NCBI GenBank assembly: GCA_022709905.1
Contig: JAKLHY010000032.1
Span: forward strand, 1 to 64,000
Length of the DNA stretch: 64,000 bases
Origin: Verrucomicrobiota bacterium
GTDB taxonomy: Bacteria; Verrucomicrobiota; Verrucomicrobiia; Limisphaerales; UBA1319
Direction: 5' to 3'
Shown here: piece after piece, positions 20,852 to 36,361 of the stretch
Layout: every line of letters begins with the position of its first letter
Numbering within the stretch: the stretch's first letter is position 1
Translations under genes and position numbers: made by a program
The notes under the pieces: generated by a model
The model's database searches: none
What the model saw: only the letters and a program-made list of their open reading frames with translations
Told to the model about the DNA's origin: nothing

Positions 20852-23800
20852 ATGGCCGCGCGATGCAATGCCAAAAGAAATGAACTACAGCTTGAGTTGT
20901 TTGGACTGAGTTTACCGACTTATGAAACCATTGACACAATACGGCCGACTGGCCGAGAACCACTGGCGGGAGTTCCTCCCGAGAATGGTTGCCGAATTGG
21001 AAGCGAAGGGATTGCTTTCCCAGATGTTGCGGGAGGCAGAGGTGAAAACGGCTCTGGAACTGGACACCCTGCGACGCCAATTTGTCCAGCAGGGATTGAC
21101 GCCCCCACAAGCCCACGATCAGGCCTGGGAGATGGTCCGGGAACGATACATCTTGCTGCCCCCCGAGGCATAGCGGAAATCTCCCAGGAAGACAATCCCC
21201 CACTTGTCGCAAAGGCAATTGCCGCCCCAGAGCCAGTAAGGCTTCGCAATCAAAGCAATTATCGCATCACCGACGCCGACGAAATCGGCGTCGGTTCGCT
21301 TAAGCGGAAATGCCATGATAATCTTGCCGCCATCGAACTGCTCAAGCAGTTGGAAACTGAATCCCGCCCGGCGACCCAGGATGAAAAACGCAAGCTGGTC
21401 CGCTTTGTTGGTTGGGGTGGCTTGCCGCAGGTTTTCGATGCCTGGAACGATGAATGGCAGCCAGAGCGGGAAAGATTGGAAGCAATTCTGTCCCCCGCTG
21501 AACTCGAATCAGCCCGTGCCACCACCCTCAACGCTCATTATACCGCTCCCGTCGTTATTAAGGCCATGTACGCGGCTTTGCAGCGTTTTGGATTCGAGCA
21601 AGGCCGAGTGCTGGAGCCTGCCTGTGGCCTGGGTCATTTCATTGGCCTTATGCCTGATGAAATGCATGGGCGATCACACGTAACCGGTGCTGAAATCGAT
21701 TCGGTCACGGCCCGGCTGACCAAATTCCTTTATCCTGACGCCGATATTCGGCACCAACCGTTCGAGGAAACCAAGCTTGCCGATGGCTTCTATGATGTGG
21801 CGATATCGAACATCCCCTTTGGTGACTATCGCCCCTTCGATCCGCGATTCAAAGCCTGGAAATTCGCCATTCACGATTACTTCTTTGCCGCGACACTGGA
21901 AAAAATCCGCCCGGGCGGGTTGATTCTGTTTGTCACCTCGAAGGGCACCTTGGATAAGCAGGATGGCGCATTGCGGGAATATGTCTCCCAACAGGCTGAT
22001 TTGCTTGGCGCAATCCGACTTCCCAATGACGCATTCAAAAAGAACGCGAACACGGAAGTCACGACGGACATTGTGATGCTGCGAAAGCGCCGCCCCGGCG
22101 AGCTTCCCAATGGGGAAGCATGGAAGGAACTGGCCACGATCACCAACTCGGTCGGCGAAGCCATTACGATCAACGAATATTTTGCCGCCCATCCAGAAAT
22201 GATGCTGGGAGAGATGCGCCTGGCGGGACGCATGTATCAACGCGGTGAACCGACTCTGGTTGGCAATGGCCGTGATCTGGGTGAACAACTGGCCGAAGCG
22301 ATTGCCTTGTTGCCTCGCGATGTCTTCCAACCACAAAAGCAGGCTGTCATCCTGCCCACTCTCGATCAGACCTACCCGGCACCAGAGCATACAAAGCCCA
22401 ATGCTTACGCCGTGTTGAATGATCGGATTGGTATTTGCGAAAATGGCCAGGTCCGATTCCTCGAAGGACTCTCGGCGAATCGGACCCAGCGCATCCAGAG
22501 TCTAATCCGGGTCAGGGACGCGGTCCGCCGCTGTCTTCGTTCGCAAATGGAGGCGACCGAGGAAGCAGAGGTCGAAACTGCTCGCCACCAGCTTAACCAG
22601 GATTACGACCGCTTTGTCGCCAAATTCGGCCCGATTTCAGATAGGGCTAACACGATGGCTTTCCGGGGCGATCCTGATTTGCCGCTTTTGTTATCCCTGG
22701 AACACTACGACGAAGAAACCAAGCAGGCCAAGAAGGCCAACATTTTTCATGAGCGAACCATTCAACGGCAATGCCTCTTGCCCAAAATCAAGAATGCCAA
22801 GGACGCCCTCCTGGTTACTCTTGGACAAAAAGGCGGTGTGGATCTCGATCATCTGGGTTCATTGCTTCATCAGCGTCCAGCGGAATTCCTTCCCGATCTC
22901 AAGGGAGCCATTTTTCTAAATCCACAAACGAATCGCTGGGAAACCGAGGATGAATACCTGTCGGGCAACGTCAGAGCCAAATTATTGGCGGCTGACGCGG
23001 CTGCCTTGGTTGACGAGCAATACAAGGCGAACGTCCAAGCCCTGAAACAAGTTCAGCCGACCGACTTGGCGGCATCGGAAATTGACGCACGGCTAGGCAG
23101 CACATGGGTCGATCCCGAAGATATTCGCCGCTTTGCCCAGGACCTTCTTGGTGATGACGGCATTGGCATCAACCATGCCCCCCAGCTTGGATTATGGACC
23201 GTGAAGGGGAATTGGAGTGTGAGAATATCGGTGGCCAACACCACTGAGTGGGGAACCGACCGGCGTAGCGCCCTGGATTTGCTAGAAGACGCCTTGAATC
23301 TCCGAACCCCCACTGTTTATGACCACGACAGCCTCAATGATCGCGACGTTGTCAATGGTCCGGCCACTGAAGTCGCTCGCGACAAGCAGGAGAAGATCAA
23401 GGAGCGATTCAAGAGCTGGATTTGGGAAAGCGATGAACGCCGGGAACGCCTGGCGCGCAAATACAACGACGAATTCAACAACGTCAGGCTTCGCACCTTC
23501 AACGGGGATCATCTGACCCTGCCGGGAGTGAGTCCAACGATTGCGTTACGCTCACATCAAAAGGCCGCAGTATGGCGGATTCTGCAAACCCCAAACTGTT
23601 TGCTTGCTCATGTCGTTGGAGCCGGAAAAACGTACACTATGGTGGCAGCGGCAATGGAATTGAAACGGCTTGGGATGGCTCGGAAGCCCCTTTTTATCGT
23701 CCCCAATCACATGCTTTGCCAATTCGCCTCCGAACTGCTGACGCTCTATCCTGGAGCGAATATCCTGGTGCCCACGAAGGATGATTTTGAAAAGGGGAAA

Positions 23801-25987
23801 CGGCAAACGTTGATGAGTCGCATTGCGACTGGCAATTGGGACGCGGTAATCGTTACTCACGCTGGTTTCGAAAAGATACCGGTCGCCCGATCCACTCAGG
23901 AAGAATACATCAAAGGGGAGTTGCGAGAATTGGCGCTCGCCATCGAACAGCAACGGAAACAGCACGATGCCCGGATTGTGAAAATCCTGGAACGGGCTAA
24001 AAAACGATTGGAAGGAAAGCTCAAGGAACTACTGGCCGAGGACAAAAAGGACAACGCCGTGACCTTTGAGGAATTGGGCGTGGATCGCTTGATCGTCGAT
24101 GAAGCCCACTGTTTCAAGAATCTGTTTTACGTCTCCAAAATGACGCGGATTGCTGGTTTACCGCAAACCGCCTCGCAACGGGCATTTGACATGTTCTTGA
24201 AGGTGCTCCACGTCCAAAGGATTAATGGGGGTGCGGGCGTGGTGTTTGCAACTGGAACCCCGGTTGCCAACAGTGTGGCCGAGATGTTCACCATGCAGCG
24301 ATATCTGCAAATGACCGCACTGAAGGCGCTACAAGTGGATCATTTTGATTCATGGGCAGCGACCTTTGGGGAACCGGTAACGGCGATGGAACTTTCCCCG
24401 GATGGCGCGGGGTATCGGTTGAATACTCGTTTTGCCCGTTTCATAAACGTGCCGGAATTGATGCAGCAATTCCGCCAAGTGGCGGACATTCAAACCGCCG
24501 AAATGCTGAAACTGCCTGTGCCCCGCCTAAAGCACGGCAAACCCACGGTCGTCAGCTCCCCCTGTTCACCCGAACTAAAAGAAATCGTGAAATCTTTGGT
24601 TGAACGGGCCGAAGCCTTGCGCACCGGACAAATTGATCCTCGTGACGACAACATGCTGCTCGTCACCACGGATGGACGGAAGGCGGCGCTTGACTTGCGC
24701 TTATACGATCCGGCCCTGCCAGATCATCCGCAAAGCAAGGTCAACCAAGCCGTGGCCACAGTGGAACGTATCTGGCGCGAAGGCGCGGCGGCCAAATCCA
24801 CCCAACTCATTTTCTGTGATCTATCCACGCCAACGGACGGGAAAGGTTTTTCCGTTTATGAAAATATGCGCGACAAGCTGATGGCTCTTGGCATTCCGCA
24901 AGGGGAAATCGCCTTTGTTCAGGACTATGATTCTGATGCCGCCAAACTGTCTCTGTTCCGGGATGTCCGATCTGGCAAGGTGCGTGTCTTGTTTGGAAGC
25001 ACGCAAAAGATGGGCACAGGTGTCAACGTGCAGGAACGTTTGATTGCCCTTCACCACTTGGACGCACCATGGCGTCCCGCCGATGTCGAGCAAAGGGAGG
25101 GACGTATCTTACGGCAAGGAAACACTCACGCGGAGGTCCAGGTTTTTCGGTATGTAACTGAAGAGTCTTTCGATGCCTATATGTGGCAAACCCTCGAAAC
25201 CAAGGCCCGGTTTATCGCCCAGGTAATGACCGGCGAAAGCGACTTGCGCCGGATCGAGGACATTGACGGCGCAGCACTCACCTATGCCGAGGTTAAGGCT
25301 ATCGCATCGGGGAATCCCCTGGTGATTGAGAAAGCCAGCATTGACGCCGAAGTGGCCCGTTTGACGCGATTACGAACCCAATATGGCAAGACCCAGTTCC
25401 AATTGCGCTCTCAAATCCGGCACATGGACGAAGAAATACCCCAATTGGAAAAACGATTGACCAGTGTCCAAGACGACCTGTCTGCCCGAGATGACACCCA
25501 CGGGGACTTCTTTTCCATTACGCTTGATGGCCAGGAAATCCGAAAACGGGACATTGCCGGGGAATTATTGCTTCGCTATGCCGACCGGATTCGTGGCACT
25601 GGGGTGGAACGGCCCATCGGTCATTTTGCGGGATTCCAGCTTTTGGTGTCGGATAATCTGGTTGGCGGACCTGAATTTGTGCTCAAAAGATCAGCAACCC
25701 ACCAAGCCAAAGTCGGCACTACTGCGCTTGGAACGGTCCGCTCGGTGGAATACGCCATCCAAAATCTGGATGAGGTTGCCATGGCTATCAGCCAGCGCAT
25801 CGCTGAAACGCGCCAACGCCTCGCCGATACCATTTCACAGACCGAACAGCCGTATGAATACGAGGAGCGGTTGGCCTACCTTTCCCAACGGCAACAGGAG
25901 ATTGCCGATGCTCTCGATCTGACAAAGAACCAAGCCCCCAGCCAGTTGGATATCGGTCCCTCAAGTGAAACACTGGCCGATGATTAA
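20852..25987 (+). CDS. Giant N6-adenine methyltransferase-SNF2 helicase fusion
   Basis: About 1,700 residues, a type found on plasmids and integrative elements. The N6-methyltransferase domain has motif I RVLEPACGLGHFIG near residue 252 and motif IV SNIPFGDY near 319. A long middle region follows, then a superfamily-2 helicase with Walker A HVVGAGKTYTM near 925 and DEAH (LIVDEAHCFKN) near 1083. ATGTPVANSVAEMF and motif VI EQREGRILRQGN near 1414 complete it. The C-terminus has a coiled coil (MDEEIPQLEKRLTSVQDDLS). Probable role: modification or protection of the incoming element, or anti-restriction. The first ~110 codons are doubtful. They overlap the small gene at 20,922 in another frame and read like shadow sequence, yet no ATG/GTG/TTG follows until inside the conserved domain. 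Confidence 0.85.
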   Translation: MAARCNAKRNELQLELFGLSLPTYETIDTIRPTGREPLAGVPPENGCRIGSEGIAFPDVAGGRGENGSGTGHPATPICPAGIDAPTSPRSGLGDGPGTIHLAAPRGIAEISQEDNPPLVAKAIAAPEPVRLRNQSNYRITDADEIGVGSLKRKCHDNLAAIELLKQLETESRPATQDEKRKLVRFVGWGGLPQVFDAWNDEWQPERERLEAILSPAELESARATTLNAHYTAPVVIKAMYAALQRFGFEQGRVLEPACGLGHFIGLMPDEMHGRSHVTGAEIDSVTARLTKFLYPDADIRHQPFEETKLADGFYDVAISNIPFGDYRPFDPRFKAWKFAIHDYFFAATLEKIRPGGLILFVTSKGTLDKQDGALREYVSQQADLLGAIRLPNDAFKKNANTEVTTDIVMLRKRRPGELPNGEAWKELATITNSVGEAITINEYFAAHPEMMLGEMRLAGRMYQRGEPTLVGNGRDLGEQLAEAIALLPRDVFQPQKQAVILPTLDQTYPAPEHTKPNAYAVLNDRIGICENGQVRFLEGLSANRTQRIQSLIRVRDAVRRCLRSQMEATEEAEVETARHQLNQDYDRFVAKFGPISDRANTMAFRGDPDLPLLLSLEHYDEETKQAKKANIFHERTIQRQCLLPKIKNAKDALLVTLGQKGGVDLDHLGSLLHQRPAEFLPDLKGAIFLNPQTNRWETEDEYLSGNVRAKLLAADAAALVDEQYKANVQALKQVQPTDLAASEIDARLGSTWVDPEDIRRFAQDLLGDDGIGINHAPQLGLWTVKGNWSVRISVANTTEWGTDRRSALDLLEDALNLRTPTVYDHDSLNDRDVVNGPATEVARDKQEKIKERFKSWIWESDERRERLARKYNDEFNNVRLRTFNGDHLTLPGVSPTIALRSHQKAAVWRILQTPNCLLAHVVGAGKTYTMVAAAMELKRLGMARKPLFIVPNHMLCQFASELLTLYPGANILVPTKDDFEKGKRQTLMSRIATGNWDAVIVTHAGFEKIPVARSTQEEYIKGELRELALAIEQQRKQHDARIVKILERAKKRLEGKLKELLAEDKKDNAVTFEELGVDRLIVDEAHCFKNLFYVSKMTRIAGLPQTASQRAFDMFLKVLHVQRINGGAGVVFATGTPVANSVAEMFTMQRYLQMTALKALQVDHFDSWAATFGEPVTAMELSPDGAGYRLNTRFARFINVPELMQQFRQVADIQTAEMLKLPVPRLKHGKPTVVSSPCSPELKEIVKSLVERAEALRTGQIDPRDDNMLLVTTDGRKAALDLRLYDPALPDHPQSKVNQAVATVERIWREGAAAKSTQLIFCDLSTPTDGKGFSVYENMRDKLMALGIPQGEIAFVQDYDSDAAKLSLFRDVRSGKVRVLFGSTQKMGTGVNVQERLIALHHLDAPWRPADVEQREGRILRQGNTHAEVQVFRYVTEESFDAYMWQTLETKARFIAQVMTGESDLRRIEDIDGAALTYAEVKAIASGNPLVIEKASIDAEVARLTRLRTQYGKTQFQLRSQIRHMDEEIPQLEKRLTSVQDDLSARDDTHGDFFSITLDGQEIRKRDIAGELLLRYADRIRGTGVERPIGHFAGFQLLVSDNLVGGPEFVLKRSATHQAKVGTTALGTVRSVEYAIQNLDEVAMAISQRIAETRQRLADTISQTEQPYEYEERLAYLSQRQQEIADALDLTKNQAPSQLDIGPSSETLADD
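20922..21173 (+). CDS. Small conserved element protein overlapping the helicase N-terminus
   Basis: 83 residues beginning MKPLTQYGRLAENHWREFLP, mostly helical and charged, with repeated hydrophobic heptads (TALELDTLRRQFVQQGLTPP) and an end ERYILLPPEA. The amino acid composition is that of a real soluble protein, unlike the overlapping frame. I recall similar short proteins beside methylase-helicase genes of related elements, but no function is known. It lies between the integrase and the large enzyme. ATG 20922 lacks a strong Shine-Dalgarno. Confidence 0.6.
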   Translation: MKPLTQYGRLAENHWREFLPRMVAELEAKGLLSQMLREAEVKTALELDTLRRQFVQQGLTPPQAHDQAWEMVRERYILLPPEA

Positions 25988-27347: not shown

Positions 27348-27437
27348 GTTATCCCGCAGGTTGCAGGCTTCGCGGACTGTGCCTGTCCCAAAACAGTCCC
27401 ATTTTGCCCACCCCTATTCCAAAACGGTGTTTTTCTG

Positions 27438-27467: not shown

Positions 27468-28091
27468 ATGGAACACCTTGAACACGCCAACAACATCGAA
27501 CTCTTGTCCACCTTGGCTGGCAAACCGGTTGCCGAAGCCCTGCTGCACCAATATGGGGGATTGACCAGCCTGGCTCAGGCCTCGTTTGACGAACTGCAAC
27601 TGGTTAAAGGCATTGGAAAATCCAAGGCGGCTGCCATCAAATCGGCTTTTCTGCTGGCCCAGCGATTGACCCGTGAATCATACCCGGATGCTGCGTTGCT
27701 GGACACCCCGGAACGGGTGGCAGATTTCTTGCGTGAGCAAAACCGTGTTTACTGCGTCGAGAATTTCCAGGTTGTTTTCCTCAATACCCGCCGCCGCCTT
27801 ATTGGCGTCGAGAACATCTCCCAGGGAACCCAGGATACAATTTTGGTTCACCCCCGCGAAGTCTTTTCCGCTGCCATTTCCAGGCGGGCATCGGCCATCA
27901 TTCTGGTGCATAACCATCCCAGCGGCGATCCGTCCCCCAGCGAGGCGGACATCAAGGTCACGCGCGACCTTATTCGGGCCGGTCAATTGCTTAAAATCGA
28001 GGTGCTGGACCACGTCATTCTTGGGAAACGAACCGATGAAAGGCCCCGGGATTTTGTCTCGTTAAGGGAATTAGGTTTCTTCTATTCTTAA
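27468..28091 (+). CDS. radC: RadC-type JAB/MPN protein
   Basis: 207 residues: an N-terminal helix-hairpin-helix-like region (LQLVKGIGKSKAAAIKSAFL) and a JAMM metalloprotease-like domain. The domain shows NRVYCVENFQVVFLNTRRRL, then HNHPSGDPSPSEAD (His148, His150, Asp161). Mobile-element RadC copies are common and are thought to act in recombination or in antagonising host defences; the activity is not settled. The 3' end overlaps the convergent gene at 28,071 by 21 bp. It is preceded by its own promoter. Confidence 0.9.
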   Translation: MEHLEHANNIELLSTLAGKPVAEALLHQYGGLTSLAQASFDELQLVKGIGKSKAAAIKSAFLLAQRLTRESYPDAALLDTPERVADFLREQNRVYCVENFQVVFLNTRRRLIGVENISQGTQDTILVHPREVFSAAISRRASAIILVHNHPSGDPSPSEADIKVTRDLIRAGQLLKIEVLDHVILGKRTDERPRDFVSLRELGFFYS

Positions 28092-28763
28092 GCTTTGGCT
28101 GTTTTCTGCCGGTTCCAGTTTATTGCTGTTCTCGTCATCAAACACCCGCACTGGACTGCGACGCAGCCGGAGTACGTTCCAGGGCACCAATTCCAAACCG
28201 GCCAACCGCCGCCTACGATTGATTGCCCGCAGAATAATGCGCAATTGGTCCCTGACAGGTGCGTAGGGCTCATAGGGGATCTCCCGCAATTTCATGTAAA
28301 GTTCTTCCACGGTTTGGTGGACCGCTATTTTCTCGAAATTGGCCTTGATCTCGCCGAAAACCGCCCGGTCGATCCGCACTGACGAATGGTATTTCCCCTG
28401 GCCCTTCGCCTGCCGACATCCGATTGAATAGCCCCCAAAATGGATTGGGTGGCGCCGGATGTCGCGGATCTGCCCGGCTTCACCGGCATAGAACGAATGT
28501 TCACCCCTGGTGGCAATCAGCACAAAGAATCTGCCATAGCGGAGGTAATGCACGTTGGCCAAGCCGACGCGCTTTCTTCGGCAGCGCGTCCATTTGGACT
28601 GGTCGATGCCGTATTGCTCGACCATCTTCCCGTCGATCCTCGCCGGGTCCTTATGGTCCGGGATTGCGCCCGTGACATAGAAATAATACCCGTTGGCCAC
28701 GTATGACACGGCCAACTGCTGGACGAATCCGGCCACCGACGTGGCCACGCACCGGTAGGTCAT
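28071..28763 (-). CDS. Conserved hypothetical protein downstream of the large RNA candidate
   Basis: 230 residues beginning MTYRCVATSVAGFVQQLAVS followed by YVANGYYFYVTGAIPDHKDP. It also carries GLANVHYLRYGRFFVLIATR, GGYSIGCR, and a basic LRIILRAINRRRRLAGLELV segment followed by a run rich in Arg. The protein is rich in Arg, Tyr and aromatics and has no recognised catalytic motif, consistent with nucleic-acid binding. I recall near-identical openings in Planctomycetes and Verrucomicrobiota mobile DNA but no assigned function. About 1.35 kb of strongly structured sequence with its own promoter lies immediately upstream on the same strand, so the RNA and protein are probably one unit. Confidence 0.75.
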   Translation of the reverse strand: MTYRCVATSVAGFVQQLAVSYVANGYYFYVTGAIPDHKDPARIDGKMVEQYGIDQSKWTRCRRKRVGLANVHYLRYGRFFVLIATRGEHSFYAGEAGQIRDIRRHPIHFGGYSIGCRQAKGQGKYHSSVRIDRAVFGEIKANFEKIAVHQTVEELYMKLREIPYEPYAPVRDQLRIILRAINRRRRLAGLELVPWNVLRLRRSPVRVFDDENSNKLEPAENSQSLRIEET

Positions 28764-28779
28764 GGCAAGGTCTCCATTC

Positions 28780-30113
28780 CCTGTTATGGGATAAAAGGTT
28801 GGGAGGTTGCATGTGTGGGCGCAATCTCCCGGAAAGCCCGGAACCTTAGACAGCCAGCCTGGCTGTAAAAACCGCGTTCAACCTTGACCTTCTCAAAAAC
28901 CTTGAGTTCGCGCTCCGCGCAGGTTTCTCGGCGGTCGCAGTTTCCCGCGAACGCTGTATTCCTGCATTGCAGTTGCGCAATTCATAGCGGTTGCGCGTAT
29001 AAGAACCTTTGTGCTTACCCGGTCATCGTCAATTACTCCTTTCGTTTTGATGCCTTCAAACGATCCGCATGTCCCCAGGCAAGTCTCGTTTGAACGTGTT
29101 TCTTTTTACTTGAAATGGGGGGCGTGGAGCATGGCTCCACACCCACCCATGACTTCATTGAGACGGTAGATTCCGTCACCTCTTTCGTGCGTGTTTTGTG
29201 CCCGGCACCACCCGTTAGCACACACCCGCCCCTTCAACTGCCTTGCTGAAGTTGCGGCGGCTCGCGCCGATTCTACTTGAGGCACTCTCATCAAAGTGCG
29301 GCTTTTAAATCACCGGCTGACCAGCCGGCACCGGATACCACTCCGGCAGCCACACTTCTTGCACGGTTAATCTGACTCTTCGCTACAGCAGTCACGTCGG
29401 TAGAACATGTTCATGTTCGAACCTGCCAGGTATGTCCAAAGCTCCCGCCTTGGCATAGTCTCCAGTCCCGGTTTTTCGGGGCTGATTTCAGGGGCTAGAA
29501 TACAGAAGCTGCTCCCTTATCCATCCTGGTCAGGTCTTTCCCGATTCGGCTACATCTCTGCTGCGGCTAACTGGCAAGGGCTTGATGCCCCTCTCATCGT
29601 TGAGCTTTTCACGGTCTGCTTTTTCGGCAGAACCCCGGAGCTTGTCAGTCTCCGGCTAGTCGGTATTGCTACCGCCAGGCTCCCGACGCCAGCGCACGTT
29701 ACACGAACCTGTCGAGCTTTTCACCCGAACGGCCATTGTGGCTTTGGTCCGCGTCCCGTGGGGGGATTTGAGGCAATTTACCTCGCACCCTCTTTAAGCC
29801 GGACGGCTTTGCCGGATTTCACGACAAAGCATTTCCCGTTCGCCCGTATTCGCGAGCCATTACTCGCGGTTATGAGATAGAATTTGGAGATTACTCTTGG
29901 TTGGTAGCCAAGGATTACTTCCAAAAGCCTCTCTCGAACGTGGCGAGCCACTCTCATGGCACCACGCTCTACGGAACACGAACGCGACGGTTGGTAAGAC
30001 CGCCCCCTTAGCCGGATGGTGAGTCCGGTTTGCCAGGTGTTCGTGACCGTCTCAATGACGCCAAAGAATGCGTTGGCACTGCAATGACGTGGTTGGGAAG
30101 CCAAAACCTCCCA
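28780..30113 (-). ncRNA. Candidate large structured RNA (unassigned)
   Basis: About 1.3 kb without a credible protein-coding frame, transcribed toward the 28,071 gene. Reading the minus strand, many hairpins fold with long perfect stems. GCCAT-GAGA-GTGGC sits inside CGTGG/CCACG near 29,960, and CGGTA-GCAA-TACCG near 29,667. CCGGAG/CTCCGG lies near 29,640, CGCGAG/CTCGCG near 29,860, CCGGCT-GGTC-AGCCGG near 29,315, and an 11-bp GGGTGTGGAGC/GCTCCACGCCC near 29,135. Two loops are GNRA only in this orientation, which sets the strand. GACGGT/ACCGTC and CACGAAC/GTTCGTG near 30,040 could form a pseudoknot. The densest part is 29,110-30,113; the 3' end is uncertain. It is not recognised as RNase P, tmRNA or a self-splicing intron. 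Giant RNAs such as GOLLD or ROOL should be tested. Confidence 0.55.
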
Positions 30114-30119
30114 TCTATG

Positions 30120-30148
30120 GTTGTATCACGTTTGGATAGTTCAAACAA
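30120..30148 (-). promoter_or_regulatory. Promoter of the large RNA candidate
   Basis: On the minus strand TTGTTT (30,148-30,143), exactly 17 bp, then TACAAC (30,125-30,120) preceded by TGA give an extended -10 promoter. Predicted start is near 30,113, at the upstream edge of the structured stretch and just past the end of the ribbon-helix-helix gene. Confidence 0.55.
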
Positions 30149-30165: not shown

Positions 30166-30576
30166 TCAACCGGCATGGCCGTGTTGGCGGAGCCAATCGG
30201 ACAGGGCCTCGGTTACCATGTCTTGTTGACTGAACGGTCGTTCCCGTCGCACCTTGCGTTCGGCGGAGACCCGTATCAGTCGGGCGGAAAGATCGGCAGG
30301 CAAACGGAACGTCATGGATACGGTCCCCTGAACCGATCCCAGAAGATCACCCGGCGGTGCTATGGGCGAGACGTTGGGCTGGACAGCCGATGTGCTCGTG
30401 CTTGCTGGTGTTTTGACTTCAGCCACTGCCGAAGGCGCAGGCTGCGGCTCGGGAGTGCTGTTCGCGCTATTTGGCGGCATTGCCGTGCCGGTCACAAAAG
30501 CCACCGCTTCATCATTCAACTTACCCGTTCGCAACGCTTCGCTCATCGATCGACGATTCTTGTCCCAATAGTCCAT
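30166..30576 (-). CDS. Ribbon-helix-helix-type partition partner protein
   Basis: 136 residues from ATG 30,576 (MDYWDKNRRSMSEALRTGKL). A Pro/Ala/Ser/Thr-rich linker (about residues 35-80) is followed by GTVSMTFRLPADLSARLIRV and SQQDMVTEALSDWLRQHG. This is a beta strand plus two helices as in ribbon-helix-helix DNA-binding proteins. It overlaps the 3' end of parA by 56 bp on the same strand, the typical position of a ParB/ParG-like centromere-binding partner. It would bind repeats upstream of parA. The longer frame from 30,663 is rejected because it lies wholly inside parA without features. Confidence 0.7.
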   Translation of the reverse strand: MDYWDKNRRSMSEALRTGKLNDEAVAFVTGTAMPPNSANSTPEPQPAPSAVAEVKTPASTSTSAVQPNVSPIAPPGDLLGSVQGTVSMTFRLPADLSARLIRVSAERKVRRERPFSQQDMVTEALSDWLRQHGHAG

Positions 30577-31180
30577 ACCACAACTCCTTGATTTCATTAG
30601 CGGCGACCTCCCCTCGTGGTCCCAAATTCCACACGACTTTCCCTTGTCCGGCAGCGTCGGCAAACGCCTGGCGCAATCGCAAGCCAGATGTGAAGGGAAT
30701 GTCCAATGATTTCGCCGTTTCCAGCAATTCTCGGCTCAGACGATACTGAACTTGAAGTTTATTTGGCACCAAGACCGCCTGCGGTGGACCCTGGCGAATT
30801 TTCTGAGCTTGCTTCACCACCCGGATGGCCTCATTTGCCGCCCGCAAATCCAACACGGACGGACCACAGGGAAGCAATGCCAAGTCGGTCACCAAAAGGA
30901 TGGCGCGGGTGACTTCCGAAAGCCCTGCCGGACCATCAATGACCAAGTGTTGGAATTGCCCTTGGAGTTCCGGCACTCGTTCGAGGATGTCGTCGGGAGT
31001 ATGAAGGCGGAACATGGGCGTCTGGGGTGACGATTCATGCAGCCAGCCCGAAGATGATCCCTGGGCATCGGCATCGACCAAGGCCACCCGTGTTCCTTGG
31101 TCTTGCCACCAGACTGTCAAATGCACTGCCAGTGTCGATTTACCGACACCTCCTTTGGAATTGGTTAACGCGATGATCAT
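30521..31180 (-). CDS. parA: ParA-family partition ATPase
   Basis: 219 residues. The deviant Walker A KGGVGKST occupies residues 9-16 (MIIALTNSKGGVGKSTLAVH), followed by ALVDADAQGSSSGWL (A' box) and FQHLVIDGPAG (Walker B). The lack of an N-terminal DNA-binding domain makes it a short type Ib-like ParA. It drives segregation of low-copy replicons. ATG 31,180 has GGAGGAAAAC directly upstream. It precedes and overlaps the ribbon-helix-helix gene. Repeats and iterons lie in the 580 bp between parA and the divergent repA. Confidence 0.9.
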   Translation of the reverse strand: MIIALTNSKGGVGKSTLAVHLTVWWQDQGTRVALVDADAQGSSSGWLHESSPQTPMFRLHTPDDILERVPELQGQFQHLVIDGPAGLSEVTRAILLVTDLALLPCGPSVLDLRAANEAIRVVKQAQKIRQGPPQAVLVPNKLQVQYRLSRELLETAKSLDIPFTSGLRLRQAFADAAGQGKVVWNLGPRGEVAANEIKELWYGLLGQESSIDERSVANG

Positions 31181-31242
31181 GTTTTCCTCCATTCTGCCCC
31201 ATGCTTGCTTGCTACCATGCCTGTCTGCTTTCACGCAAGCGG

Positions 31243-31764: not shown

Positions 31765-33198
31765 GTGGAATGGCCGGAGCGCATCGAAGTTGAATCGATG
31801 CCTATGAAAACAATCGACGGACGCGACGAGCTTAACCTGGCGGAATTCCCGTTATGCGCATTGGCGCATCGGCGTAAACCCAACCAACGCACCCTGCATT
31901 TTGAGGACCGGATTTGGGATGAACTTCGCCGGGAAATGATCACCCGCCAATTGACCATCACCGGTTCGGATGCCTTTGGATTACCCACCGCCCTGGATGA
32001 CGAGGTTTTGCTAGGCTTGGTCCAGCTTACCAAGCAGCATGGATTCTCGGACCGCAAGGTGCCGTTCTCACGTTACCAATTACTCAAGTTATTGGGGTGG
32101 CGTGACGATACGAAATCCTATGAGCGACTGGAGGCATCCCTCAATCGTTGGACCGGGGTCACCCTCTATTATCGTAACGCTTGGTGGAATAAATCGCGGC
32201 AAAGCTGGGTGGATGAGAAATTCCATGTTCTCGACAATGTCTGGCTTTGCCACCGGTCAGACCTGAAAACCGATTTTGGAGAAGGAACGTTCATTTCGGC
32301 ATTCGTCTGGAACGATGTCATTTTCCGGAGTTTCCAGGCCGGGAACCTGAAATCTCTCGATTTCGATTTTGTCAAGGACTTGGACAGCGCCATCGCCAAA
32401 AGGCTTTACCGCCTTTTGGACAAGCGCTTTTTCCATCGGACCCGGTGGGAATTTGGGCTGAAGGATTTCGCATATGAACACATCGGTCTGTCTCGCGGTT
32501 ACGATGCGTCGAGCCTGAAACGAAAGTTGCGTCCCGGAATTGCTGAATTGGAAATGAAAGGATTCCTTCAGCCAATGGCGGAAAACCAACGATTTCGGAA
32601 ATTATGCGCCACCGAATGGCGCGTCATTTTTACCAAAGCCATGCCAAAACTGGTTACGTCCGACCTTGCTTCGCCGCCATCCTCGAATGACAATCTCGTT
32701 ACCGCATTAATTCAACGAGGAGTGACCCGCCGATCCGCTCAACATGCGGTTCAGGAATTTCCCGCCGACCAGATCGAGCAACAAATAGAGGTCTTCGATT
32801 GGCTTATCTCACGAAAGGATGTCAAGGTTTCCCGCAATCCGCCCGGCTGGCTCATGAGCGCCATTACTGATAATTACTCACCACCCAAGGATTTCGTTAG
32901 CCGTGTGGAACAAGCCCGGCGGGACGAATGTGCAGCCGAAACCAAGCGACAGGGGGAAGAACGAGAGAAACAGCGCGAGGCGATGGAACGGCACAGGGAA
33001 GAGAAAAGGGAGCAGAGGATCATGGATTTTCTGCAATCGCTTGGCGACGATGAAAGAATGCAATTGGAAAAGGATGCCTTGGTTCAGGCTCCAAAACTCC
33101 AGCGGTCATTGATCCAGCGTGGCGGCAGCCTGGGGGCCGCCGCTCGGAAAGCAGTCATCGATGCCTATGTATTGGCACGCCTTCTGGCCCGTCAATGA
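31765..33198 (+). CDS. repA: Plasmid replication initiator (RepA/RPA family)
   Basis: 477 residues. The winged-helix initiator core spans about 30-300. Landmarks are RTLHFEDRIWDELRREM, LDDEVLLGLVQLTKQHGFSD, PFSRYQLLKLLGWRDDTKSY, ERLEASLNRWTGVTLYYRNA and DSAIAKRLYRLLDKRFF. This fits the replication initiator protein A family of broad-host plasmids. The C-terminal third (about 390-440) is a highly charged Glu/Arg/Lys helix, probably coiled coil. GTG 31,765 follows GGAGGTG. Together with the iterons and parA it shows the element has, or had, autonomous replication. Confidence 0.85.
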   Translation: MEWPERIEVESMPMKTIDGRDELNLAEFPLCALAHRRKPNQRTLHFEDRIWDELRREMITRQLTITGSDAFGLPTALDDEVLLGLVQLTKQHGFSDRKVPFSRYQLLKLLGWRDDTKSYERLEASLNRWTGVTLYYRNAWWNKSRQSWVDEKFHVLDNVWLCHRSDLKTDFGEGTFISAFVWNDVIFRSFQAGNLKSLDFDFVKDLDSAIAKRLYRLLDKRFFHRTRWEFGLKDFAYEHIGLSRGYDASSLKRKLRPGIAELEMKGFLQPMAENQRFRKLCATEWRVIFTKAMPKLVTSDLASPPSSNDNLVTALIQRGVTRRSAQHAVQEFPADQIEQQIEVFDWLISRKDVKVSRNPPGWLMSAITDNYSPPKDFVSRVEQARRDECAAETKRQGEEREKQREAMERHREEKREQRIMDFLQSLGDDERMQLEKDALVQAPKLQRSLIQRGGSLGAAARKAVIDAYVLARLLARQ

Positions 33199-34625: not shown

Positions 34626-34979
34626 ATGCCTAAACGCCACTTGCGTTCCACGCTTAACGTCGCCCCCCCAACAACGATTGGTTTCCGGTTGGACGAGGCC
34701 AGCCTGCGTATTCTCGCAGAGCGGGCAAAGCGACTTGGCCTTAGTATCCATGAACTGGCGAGGCATTACGTCATTGAGGTTCTGCAGGAACCCGAAGAAC
34801 GGTCGGCATTGCGTGAGGCAGTGGAAACGGTCCAGCGCGAAATTATGGCGAGTCGTGAAGACCTCGCAGTGGCAACGGAGGCAATACTGGTTTCCTCCGG
34901 TAACATCGAAGAATCTCAAGCCCGAAAATGGGTTGATGAAAACCTAAAAACAGCATGCTCTCCATCTCGGCACCCATGA
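34626..34979 (+). CDS. Small DNA-binding relaxosome accessory protein candidate
   Basis: 117 residues. TIGFRLDEASLRILAERAKR followed by LGLSIHELARHYVIEVLQEP resembles a ribbon-helix-helix domain. A long amphipathic helix follows (SALREAVETVQREIMASRED), ending with a short tail. The 3' end overlaps the relaxase gene by 25 bp. Small ribbon-helix-helix proteins next to MOBF relaxases normally bind oriT and load the relaxase. oriT is probably nearby but I could not identify a nic site. Confidence 0.65.
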   Translation: MPKRHLRSTLNVAPPTTIGFRLDEASLRILAERAKRLGLSIHELARHYVIEVLQEPEERSALREAVETVQREIMASREDLAVATEAILVSSGNIEESQARKWVDENLKTACSPSRHP

Positions 34980-36361
34980 AAGGCGCAGGCAGTGGAAATT
35001 ATTACTTGAACCTTGCCCGCGAAGATTATTACGACAACCAAACTGAAGAACCGGGTCAATGGTTCGGAACAGGTGCGCAATGGATGAATTTGCAGGGAAC
35101 CGTCAAACGAGATGCCTTTCATAATCTGCTGGAAGGTTATTCGCCTGATGGCAAGTGGTTTCATGTTCAAAACGCAGGAAGTCCCAAACGACAGAGCGGT
35201 TGGGACTTAACCTTTAGCGCTCCCAAGAGTGTATCGGTGCTTTGGGCGTTATCGCCAGATGATCTCCGTAAAGAAATCGAATCGGCTCATCAACATGCCG
35301 TTAAGCGAGCGCTTACCTATTTGGAAGAAACAGCCGGAATAACCCGGCGTGGTCGAGGAGGTGCGATCAAGGAATCCGCTGCTTTGGTTTATGCAACCTT
35401 TCAACACGGCACTTCACGAGCCCATGATCCTCAGCTCCACACCCACGCGATATTGCTCAATTTGGGATTACGGGAAGATGGCACAAGCGGATCGCTTCAA
35501 AGTCTAAATATTTTCCGCGAAAAGATGTCCGCCGGGGCAGTTTATCAAACGGAGTTAGCCTGCGTTTTACGCAGAAAAATGAATCTCCAAATTGATCCTG
35601 ATCCTGTGAGTTTTCACGTCCGCGGGGTGCCAAAGGAATTGTGTCATGAGTTTTCAAAACGACGTCGAGCGATCGAACGAAAGTTGAAAGCGCAGGGCAA
35701 ACAGGGTGCGATCGCCGCAAAAACTGCCGCTTTGGAAACAAGGCAAAAGAAGGAAAGCATTCCGCGTGCGGAACTTTTTTCACGTTGGGAACAAGTCGGT
35801 AAAACTTACGGGTGGAATGCCATGCATATTTTTAACAGACAACAGGAAAAAAACCTGCAAAAGCAAATCGAGGTCATTTCCAAACAGATCATTGCAGAAA
35901 AACTCAAAGAGGTCATTGAATCGATTCCTGCCGCACAACGGACGCGAGCCCGAGTCATTAGAGCCGCCACCATGGTCGCTATTCAAAATGGCGCCGATGC
36001 ACAAATGCTGGCGGATAACCTGAACACAAACAAGACAGATAAGAAATTGAGGCTTTTTCACATTGAATGGCGTCCACTGTTCCGCAAAGCGCCATCTTGG
36101 AGTCTCGCCAAGAAAATGAGAGCACCTGTAATTGTTTTGGGTCCCCCAGGCCTCCGGAAGCGACGAAATCAATGGGGCCGAATCATTTGGAGACGAAACG
36201 CGGTTATCGGGGAAGTGCGTATGCAAAGGAAGTTGCTTTTTCCGAAAGCCCCAAGGTGGAGTCCGGCACGCAAAATTGCACTTCCAGCTTTACGACTTTT
36301 AAAAAGGCCCATACAATCGCCCCCTTTGAAACCGTCGAAGGACAATCGAATTACGCACTGA
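34955..36361 (+). CDS. MOBF (TrwC-type) conjugative relaxase lacking a helicase domain
   Basis: 468 residues. The TrwC relaxase fold starts MLSISAPMKGAGSGNYYLNL with tyrosines at 16-17 and 25-26 as catalytic candidates. Residues GWDLTFSAPKSVSVLWAL and the histidine triad His157, His162, His164 in HDPQLHTHAI follow. TrwC/TraI proteins normally exceed 900 residues with a C-terminal SF1 helicase. Here the domain stops near residue 330 and a basic tail of low complexity follows. No helicase Walker motif is present. The protein likely nicks oriT and remains bound to the 5' end, relying on a host or partner-plasmid helicase. Confidence 0.85.
   Translation: MLSISAPMKGAGSGNYYLNLAREDYYDNQTEEPGQWFGTGAQWMNLQGTVKRDAFHNLLEGYSPDGKWFHVQNAGSPKRQSGWDLTFSAPKSVSVLWALSPDDLRKEIESAHQHAVKRALTYLEETAGITRRGRGGAIKESAALVYATFQHGTSRAHDPQLHTHAILLNLGLREDGTSGSLQSLNIFREKMSAGAVYQTELACVLRRKMNLQIDPDPVSFHVRGVPKELCHEFSKRRRAIERKLKAQGKQGAIAAKTAALETRQKKESIPRAELFSRWEQVGKTYGWNAMHIFNRQQEKNLQKQIEVISKQIIAEKLKEVIESIPAAQRTRARVIRAATMVAIQNGADAQMLADNLNTNKTDKKLRLFHIEWRPLFRKAPSWSLAKKMRAPVIVLGPPGLRKRRNQWGRIIWRRNAVIGEVRMQRKLLFPKAPRWSPARKIALPALRLLKRPIQSPPLKPSKDNRITH

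Follow-up and report, generated by a model that had tools for sequence, protein, structure and literature searches.

In group II introns, domain V (D5) normally sits at the 3' end. The closest described relatives of the RNA reported here are the circularly permuted (CP) group II ribozymes, a class named in 2021 by Roth, Weinberg, Vanderschuren, Murdock and Breaker, with examples from Polaromonas pPNAP05, Thermus pTT8 and Comamonas testosteroni KF-1 (PMC8637638). In that paper's account, the kissing contact between the loops of P2 and domain II (D2) is unique to the class and its best supported contact, pseudoknots joining P1 to the 3' end and domain III (D3) to domain I (D1) are more restricted within it, the pPNAP05 RNA lies near the origin, and in vivo processing was not seen for the member from P. 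naphthalenivorans (PMC8637638).

We analysed a window of 64,000 nucleotides, the whole stretch of DNA under study, from a Verrucomicrobiota contig. We interpret its minus strand from about 30,113 to 29,170 as a CP group II ribozyme and the acpG gene downstream as the protein gene associated with it, both on a plasmid or integrative element, with a probability of about 0.93. The parts of the RNA and the gene are as follows.

29,978-30,113, minus strand: P1 and P2, covarying helices, with the 5' end placed where conservation begins
30,045-29,977, minus strand: P2 arm, loop UACCA at 29,996-29,992, with 5 of 5 pairs to the D2 loop
29,971-29,976, minus strand (pairing with 29,171-29,176): closing stem just before D5, 6 bp, 99% paired, 4 pairs covarying; 29,171-29,176 is its 3' strand
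29,936-29,969, minus strand: domain V, GAGCGUGGUGCCAUGAGAGUGGCUCGCCACGUUC, with an AGC triad, 9 bp, a UC bulge, 5 bp and a GAGA loop; RF00029 match and covariation
29,872-29,935, minus strand: domain VI (D6), with bulged branch-point A29878 between covarying stems and the end CUAUCUCAU
29,873-29,872, minus strand: AU, after which lies the 3' splice site, placed from the sequence
29,846-29,871, minus strand: linker ("exons") of 26 nt, AACCGCGAGUAAUGGCUCGCGAAUAC, bounded by AU and GGGCG; predicted RNA circle
29,851-29,846, minus strand: IBS1, GAAUAC, the last bases of the linker
29,363-29,845, minus strand: domain I, opening with the 5' splice site GGGCGA (29,845-29,840)
29,503-29,498, minus strand: EBS1, GUAUUC, in a conserved D1 loop
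29,293-29,358, minus strand: domain II, with loop UGGUA at 29,340-29,336, the kissing partner of P2
29,178-29,283, minus strand: domain III, covarying helices
29,112-29,150, minus strand: GC-rich hairpin after D3, seen in alignments; candidate D4-like stem by position only
28,071-28,763, minus strand: acpG homologue, 230 aa, pI 9.9, 12% Arg

The domain order on the minus strand is therefore P1-P2-D5-D6-linker-D1-D2-D3, with D5 at the 5' end of the RNA, several hundred structured bases downstream of it, and the closing stem connecting the end of D3 with the point where D5 begins. D5 combines the AGC triad with five pairs up to the UC bulge and a GNRA tetraloop, and its 34-base geometry is present in 12 of the 14 sequences examined, the window included. 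No reverse transcriptase ORF lies inside the RNA, and no reverse transcriptase match was found anywhere in the window. Every CP class feature that we tested was found: domain order, D5, the D6 branch A, splice sites, EBS1-IBS1 pairing, the P2-D2 contact and the lack of a reverse transcriptase ORF. The assignment of D4 and both ends of the RNA are uncertain.

We scanned the whole window against Rfam at the gathering score, which returned a tRNA alone and no family for the RNA stretch. Below that cutoff, the D5-D6 model Intron_gpII (RF00029) matched 29,971-29,900 on the minus strand (E = 1.4e-4, 34.3 bits; gathering score 40). Rfam left the RNA unnamed because D5-D6 alone matched a model, and did so below the cutoff. 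Rfam matches to tpke11 and SNORA70 were set aside as chance. Since the whole RNA fits the published CP class and its D5-D6 part matches Intron_gpII, the locus is of a known kind and is not a new RNA-protein system. The preliminary description had proposed such a new system; that proposal falls with the match to a known intron family, the very outcome it had named as counting against it. Much of what it read from the letters stands. Its stretch free of credible protein frames holds only short, unsupported ORFs (28,780-30,113), the dense minus-strand structure is borne out by folding and is far above chance in an alignment of 24 sequences, and its hairpin with a GCAA loop near 29,667 is present. 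The GAGA hairpin that it placed near 29,960 proves to be domain V (29,969-29,936), and the pseudoknot suspected near 30,040 falls on the P2 arm, whose loop kisses that of D2. For the promoter claimed at the upstream edge, the letters there can be read as TTGTTT-17 bp-TACAAC, a TG preceding the second hexamer, but a strict sigma-70 scan finds none, leaving it weakly supported; in many relatives, though not in all, a TGNTA -10-like box stands some 150-165 bases before D5.

The locus shares with the class, as set out in PMC8637638, the order D5-D6-linker-D1-D2-D3, splice sites of GGGCG and AU (published as NU), EBS1-IBS1 pairing, P2-D2 kissing, a D5 bulge of UC (published as UN), a short linker (26 nt, against 15-86 nt), the lack of a reverse transcriptase ORF and a plasmid setting beside replication genes. 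It differs in a sequence remote from the published members (blastn of the RNA against the plasmid collection gave no match) and in its hosts, which are Verrucomicrobiota, Planctomycetota, Cyanobacteriota and others absent from the main text of that paper. The A of the D5 triad pairs with a U here and is unpaired in the consensus as published there, and in some relatives the triad is CGC or the linker reaches about 100 nt.

To assess the proposed fold, as the preliminary description had suggested, we looked for covariation. Across 24 sequences, the consensus fold of the whole RNA has 191 pairs, of which 149 show changes on both sides, and 95.0% of cells are paired. Shuffled controls gave 73.4% of cells paired and a mean of 97 pairs (maximum 108) with changes on both sides, and they overstate significance because the RNA homologues are kin, a flaw from which the slide controls are free: moving the partners by 1-3 bases left 34-41% of cells paired. 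For D5-D6, 24 of 28 pairs covary and 97.3% of cells are paired, with a covariation score of 0.745 (shuffled, 0.221 +/- 0.018; slid, at most 0.135).

The splice-site motifs and tertiary contacts are likewise kept among relatives. The GGGCGA hexamer occurs in every aligned relative, including the published pPNAP05 and Thermus members, and when the AU/GGGCG rule is applied to pPNAP05 it gives a linker of 32 nt (counted by hand), equal to the published circle length. EBS1 and IBS1 form six of six pairs here and 118 of 144 over 24 loci (shuffled, 96 +/- 4.4; 0 of 2000 shuffles). The score falls to 3-4 of 6 pairs in some relatives, so a few of the assumed splice sites may be wrong. The P2-D2 kissing loop is paired at 114 of 120 positions across the 24 loci (shuffled, 96.6 +/- 2.2; 0 of 5000), and the UACCA/UGGUA of the window is swapped in relatives for CACCA/UGGUG, CAUCA/UGAUG, GACCA/UGGUC and GGCUA/UAGCC.

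Some relatives depart from this pattern. Four loci (L082, L083, L087 and L104) have a linker of about 100 nt and a second GGGCG or similar site just behind D6, so that neither their true 5' splice site nor their circle size is certain. The same four, from Phycisphaerae and Nitrospira, have a small conserved ORF (MGWWR...SGG/SVIGD...) between the CP RNA and acpG. CGC replaces the AGC triad of D5 in L030, L032, L060, L083, L087 and L088, members that come from Leptolyngbya, Planococcus, Calothrix and several MAGs. On the Calothrix plasmid (L060, AP018278), two CP RNAs (626-756 and 2777-2898), both with CGC, lie upstream of one acpG.

The 230-aa ORF downstream of the RNA lies where the preliminary description put it, and the opening of its protein is kept in relatives. 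BLASTP found no pairwise similarity between this protein and Thermus AcpG (TTHC007), and searches with it against Pfam and NCBIfam returned no family and a PDB sequence search nothing of note. Profile-profile comparison did align it to TTHC007 over 160 columns (E = 1.3e-6, hhalign probability 90.6), and we therefore file this Arg-rich protein, on sequence grounds, as a divergent AcpG. Both proteins are linked to a CP group II RNA; the one here has about 230 residues and TTHC007 has 260. The predicted fold is good (pLDDT 84, pTM 0.77), and Foldseek found no match for it in the PDB (best E = 0.35); BFVD matches to polymerases (E = 0.03, TM about 0.3) were too weak for use. Most likely, AcpG binds the CP RNA and stabilises or matures it, a role that we read from linkage and basic charge alone because the predicted fold has no useful match.

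We determined how often the RNA and the protein occur together. Among 320 genomes of the same order, a nucleotide search located the RNA in 20, the protein in 19 and both in 17 (P = 2.7e-23), in agreement with the earlier claim that a conserved basic protein accompanies a large, structured minus-strand RNA; genomes with one partner alone mostly hold partial or contig-end matches. A first scan of genome contigs with a single AcpG sequence as query gave no match, and an alignment-based scan of named genomes yielded 42 protein loci, spanning Verrucomicrobiota, Planctomycetota, Nitrospira, Acidobacteria, Thermoleophilia, Thiocystis, Competibacteraceae and others. No AcpG was found in phages or IMG/VR. 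We counted a public acpG locus as assessable when 2 kb or more of sequence preceded the gene; of 29 such loci, 28 carry the RNA upstream on the same strand, at a distance of 1.2-3.0 kb from acpG. AcpG relatives on planctomycete, Leptolyngbya, Calothrix and Planococcus plasmids have an unannotated gap of 1.3-1.7 kb in front, and each such gap contains a CP RNA, with a second copy further upstream in Calothrix. One locus (L111) was found through the RNA model alone, and there too acpG lies downstream. A D5-D6 covariance model made from these relatives, with no published member as anchor, recovers the published pPNAP05 ribozyme (E = 6e-10) and, weakly, the Thermus pTB2 and pWG16 RNAs; the RNAs at the 28 assessable acpG loci were also found with it. 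The locus and its roughly 30 relatives widen the CP class to plasmid-like elements in which ribozyme and acpG form a same-strand unit, which opens the RNA-protein partnership to direct testing.

What we observed is the architecture, the motifs at the splice sites, covariation, the homology of the protein and its linkage; we infer how the locus would be transcribed, its activity, its exact products and the part played by AcpG. The ribozyme and acpG would be a single minus-strand unit transcribed from about 30,113, and the P2-D2 kissing loop, along with the stem between the end of D3 and the start of D5, would hold the folded RNA together. In the first step, the 2'-OH of branch-point A29878 would attack the 5' splice site (29846|29845) under the guidance of EBS1-IBS1 pairing; in the second, the freed 3'-OH of the linker would attack the 3' splice site (29872|29871). 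The products would be a 26-nt circle, predicted to fold as a single hairpin, and a T-shaped branched RNA in which D5-D6 is joined 2'-5' to D1-D3 and which would retain the acpG message on its 3' arm. The attack by A29878, the circle and the branched RNA are predicted because they follow the chemistry established for the CP class, as reported by Roth et al. 2021 (PMC8637638). The window supplies a natural substrate with a predicted 26-nt circle.

A different fate, which we consider unlikely, is that the CP ribozyme is past splicing and now serves as a structured 5' leader controlling acpG expression. In this lineage the RNA does precede acpG on the same strand, no minus-strand terminator-like site was found between the two, and an extra leader element, R2, immediately precedes acpG. 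The splice sites, the EBS1-IBS1 pairing and the branch A are nevertheless kept despite sequence change, which is unexpected if splicing were lost, and acpG is often divergent or distant in the published members, as PMC8637638 describes them, whereas here it lies downstream on the same strand in all assessable RNA-bearing relatives of the lineage.

It is highly improbable that the RNA is an unpermuted group II intron of the canonical type, whole or as a degenerate remnant, with D5-D6 beside an unrelated structured RNA by chance. The same genome does contain an ordinary group II intron that has a reverse transcriptase (G000:C112), and reverse transcriptase genes occur elsewhere in it; catalytic D5, branch-point D6 and the D1-D3 parts are common to this RNA and canonical introns (RF00029). 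The order here is permuted, however, the splice sites are internal and reversed, there is no intron-encoded reverse transcriptase, and a D1-to-D6 order with terminal splice sites was not found. D5-D6 lies 5' and D1-D3 downstream in every relative, an order conserved across Verrucomicrobiota, Planctomycetota, Cyanobacteriota and others. In D5 the bulge follows the UN pattern of CP members, and the CP-specific P2-D2 pseudoknot covaries. The conserved permuted order and this pseudoknot refute the canonical reading. A new class of large noncoding RNA, GOLLD- or ROOL-like, with a new RNA-binding protein would agree with the absence of an Rfam family at the gathering score and of a Pfam or NCBIfam family for the protein, but it merits scarcely any credence and is refuted by the CP features found and the homology to AcpG; the likeness to giant RNAs drawn earlier finds no support, as no Rfam model of GOLLD, ROOL, OLE or HEARO matched.

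The assignment to a CP group II ribozyme leaves about 330 nt of conserved bases that separate D3 from acpG and that the main text of the CP class paper (PMC8637638) does not describe. They contain the first two of the following elements; the third lies beyond acpG.

28,945-29,000, minus strand: conserved box GCNACCRCTATGNATTGNGC and a hairpin containing GGAANACAG, from an alignment of 13 loci
28,796-28,843, minus strand: R2, before acpG, GGCUU followed by a stem, GCC, a short loop and the returning stem strand, with covariation
27,359-27,407, plus strand: second copy of R2, upstream of radC, 34.8 bits with the R2 model

Covariation is seen at 6 of the 8 pairs of the R2 stem (0 of 500 shuffles). 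GGC-GCC pairing would make R2 a possible H-type pseudoknot, and this pairing proves nothing because both strands hardly vary. The two copies are the only ones in the 76.9-kb contig (chance 0.2). R2 lies ahead of acpG in nearly all relatives, among them three cyanobacterial and planctomycete plasmids that had no part in model building. We found it in 27 of 313 genomes of the order, where copies elsewhere stand in front of radC, antitoxins of the UPF0175 and Phd types, a methylase-helicase, DUF7673 and unknown genes. An Rfam search returned nothing similar, and the element may be new to description. Tentatively, R2 could be an undescribed cis-acting element that puts acpG under shared control with the plasmid genes radC, antitoxins, methylase-helicase and DUF7673, and the CP ribozyme-AcpG pair could belong to a programme of plasmid maintenance or escape from host defence; we regard this as doubtful but worth stating. 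The set of genes behind R2 (radC, antitoxin, methylase-helicase, acpG) presumably resembles plasmid leading-region and anti-defence sets, which is a lead only, any action of R2, as RNA or as DNA, for example as a single-stranded promoter, being putative. That R2 is shared by acpG, radC and antitoxin genes gives a first hint of the programme to which acpG may belong, and membership of the ribozyme-AcpG pair in such a programme, if true, would for the first time point to a function of CP group II ribozymes.

Also between D3 and acpG, at 29,010-29,045 on the minus strand, an RBS-like AAAGGAG is followed by a three-codon ORF, ATG ACC GGG TAA. Mini-ORFs at the matching place in L067 and L012 read ATG ACA AGC TGA and ATG AGC GGA TGA.

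The neighbourhood is plasmid-like, as the preliminary description expected of a mobile element, and includes the following genes.

27,468-28,091, plus strand: radC
30,166-30,663: small ORF overlapping the 3' end of parA, CopG-like by eye only
30,521-31,234: parA
31,765-33,198: RepA-type initiator (PF10134)
34,955-36,361: MobF relaxase

Pfam gave no match for the small ORF. The block of rep, parA, small ORF, CP RNA and acpG recurs in several verrucomicrobial relatives, most with radC nearby. We found no terminal overlap in the 76,925-base contig, which may be a plasmid or an integrated element. A methylase-helicase-like protein of 1711 aa (20,852-25,987, plus strand) weakly resembles DISARM DrmD and further defence helicases (NCBIfam, with scores well under the cutoffs), and a relative (L139) has R2 upstream. 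Reverse transcriptases and a canonical intron (L110, on C112) are present elsewhere in the genome, so help to the CP RNA in trans is possible.
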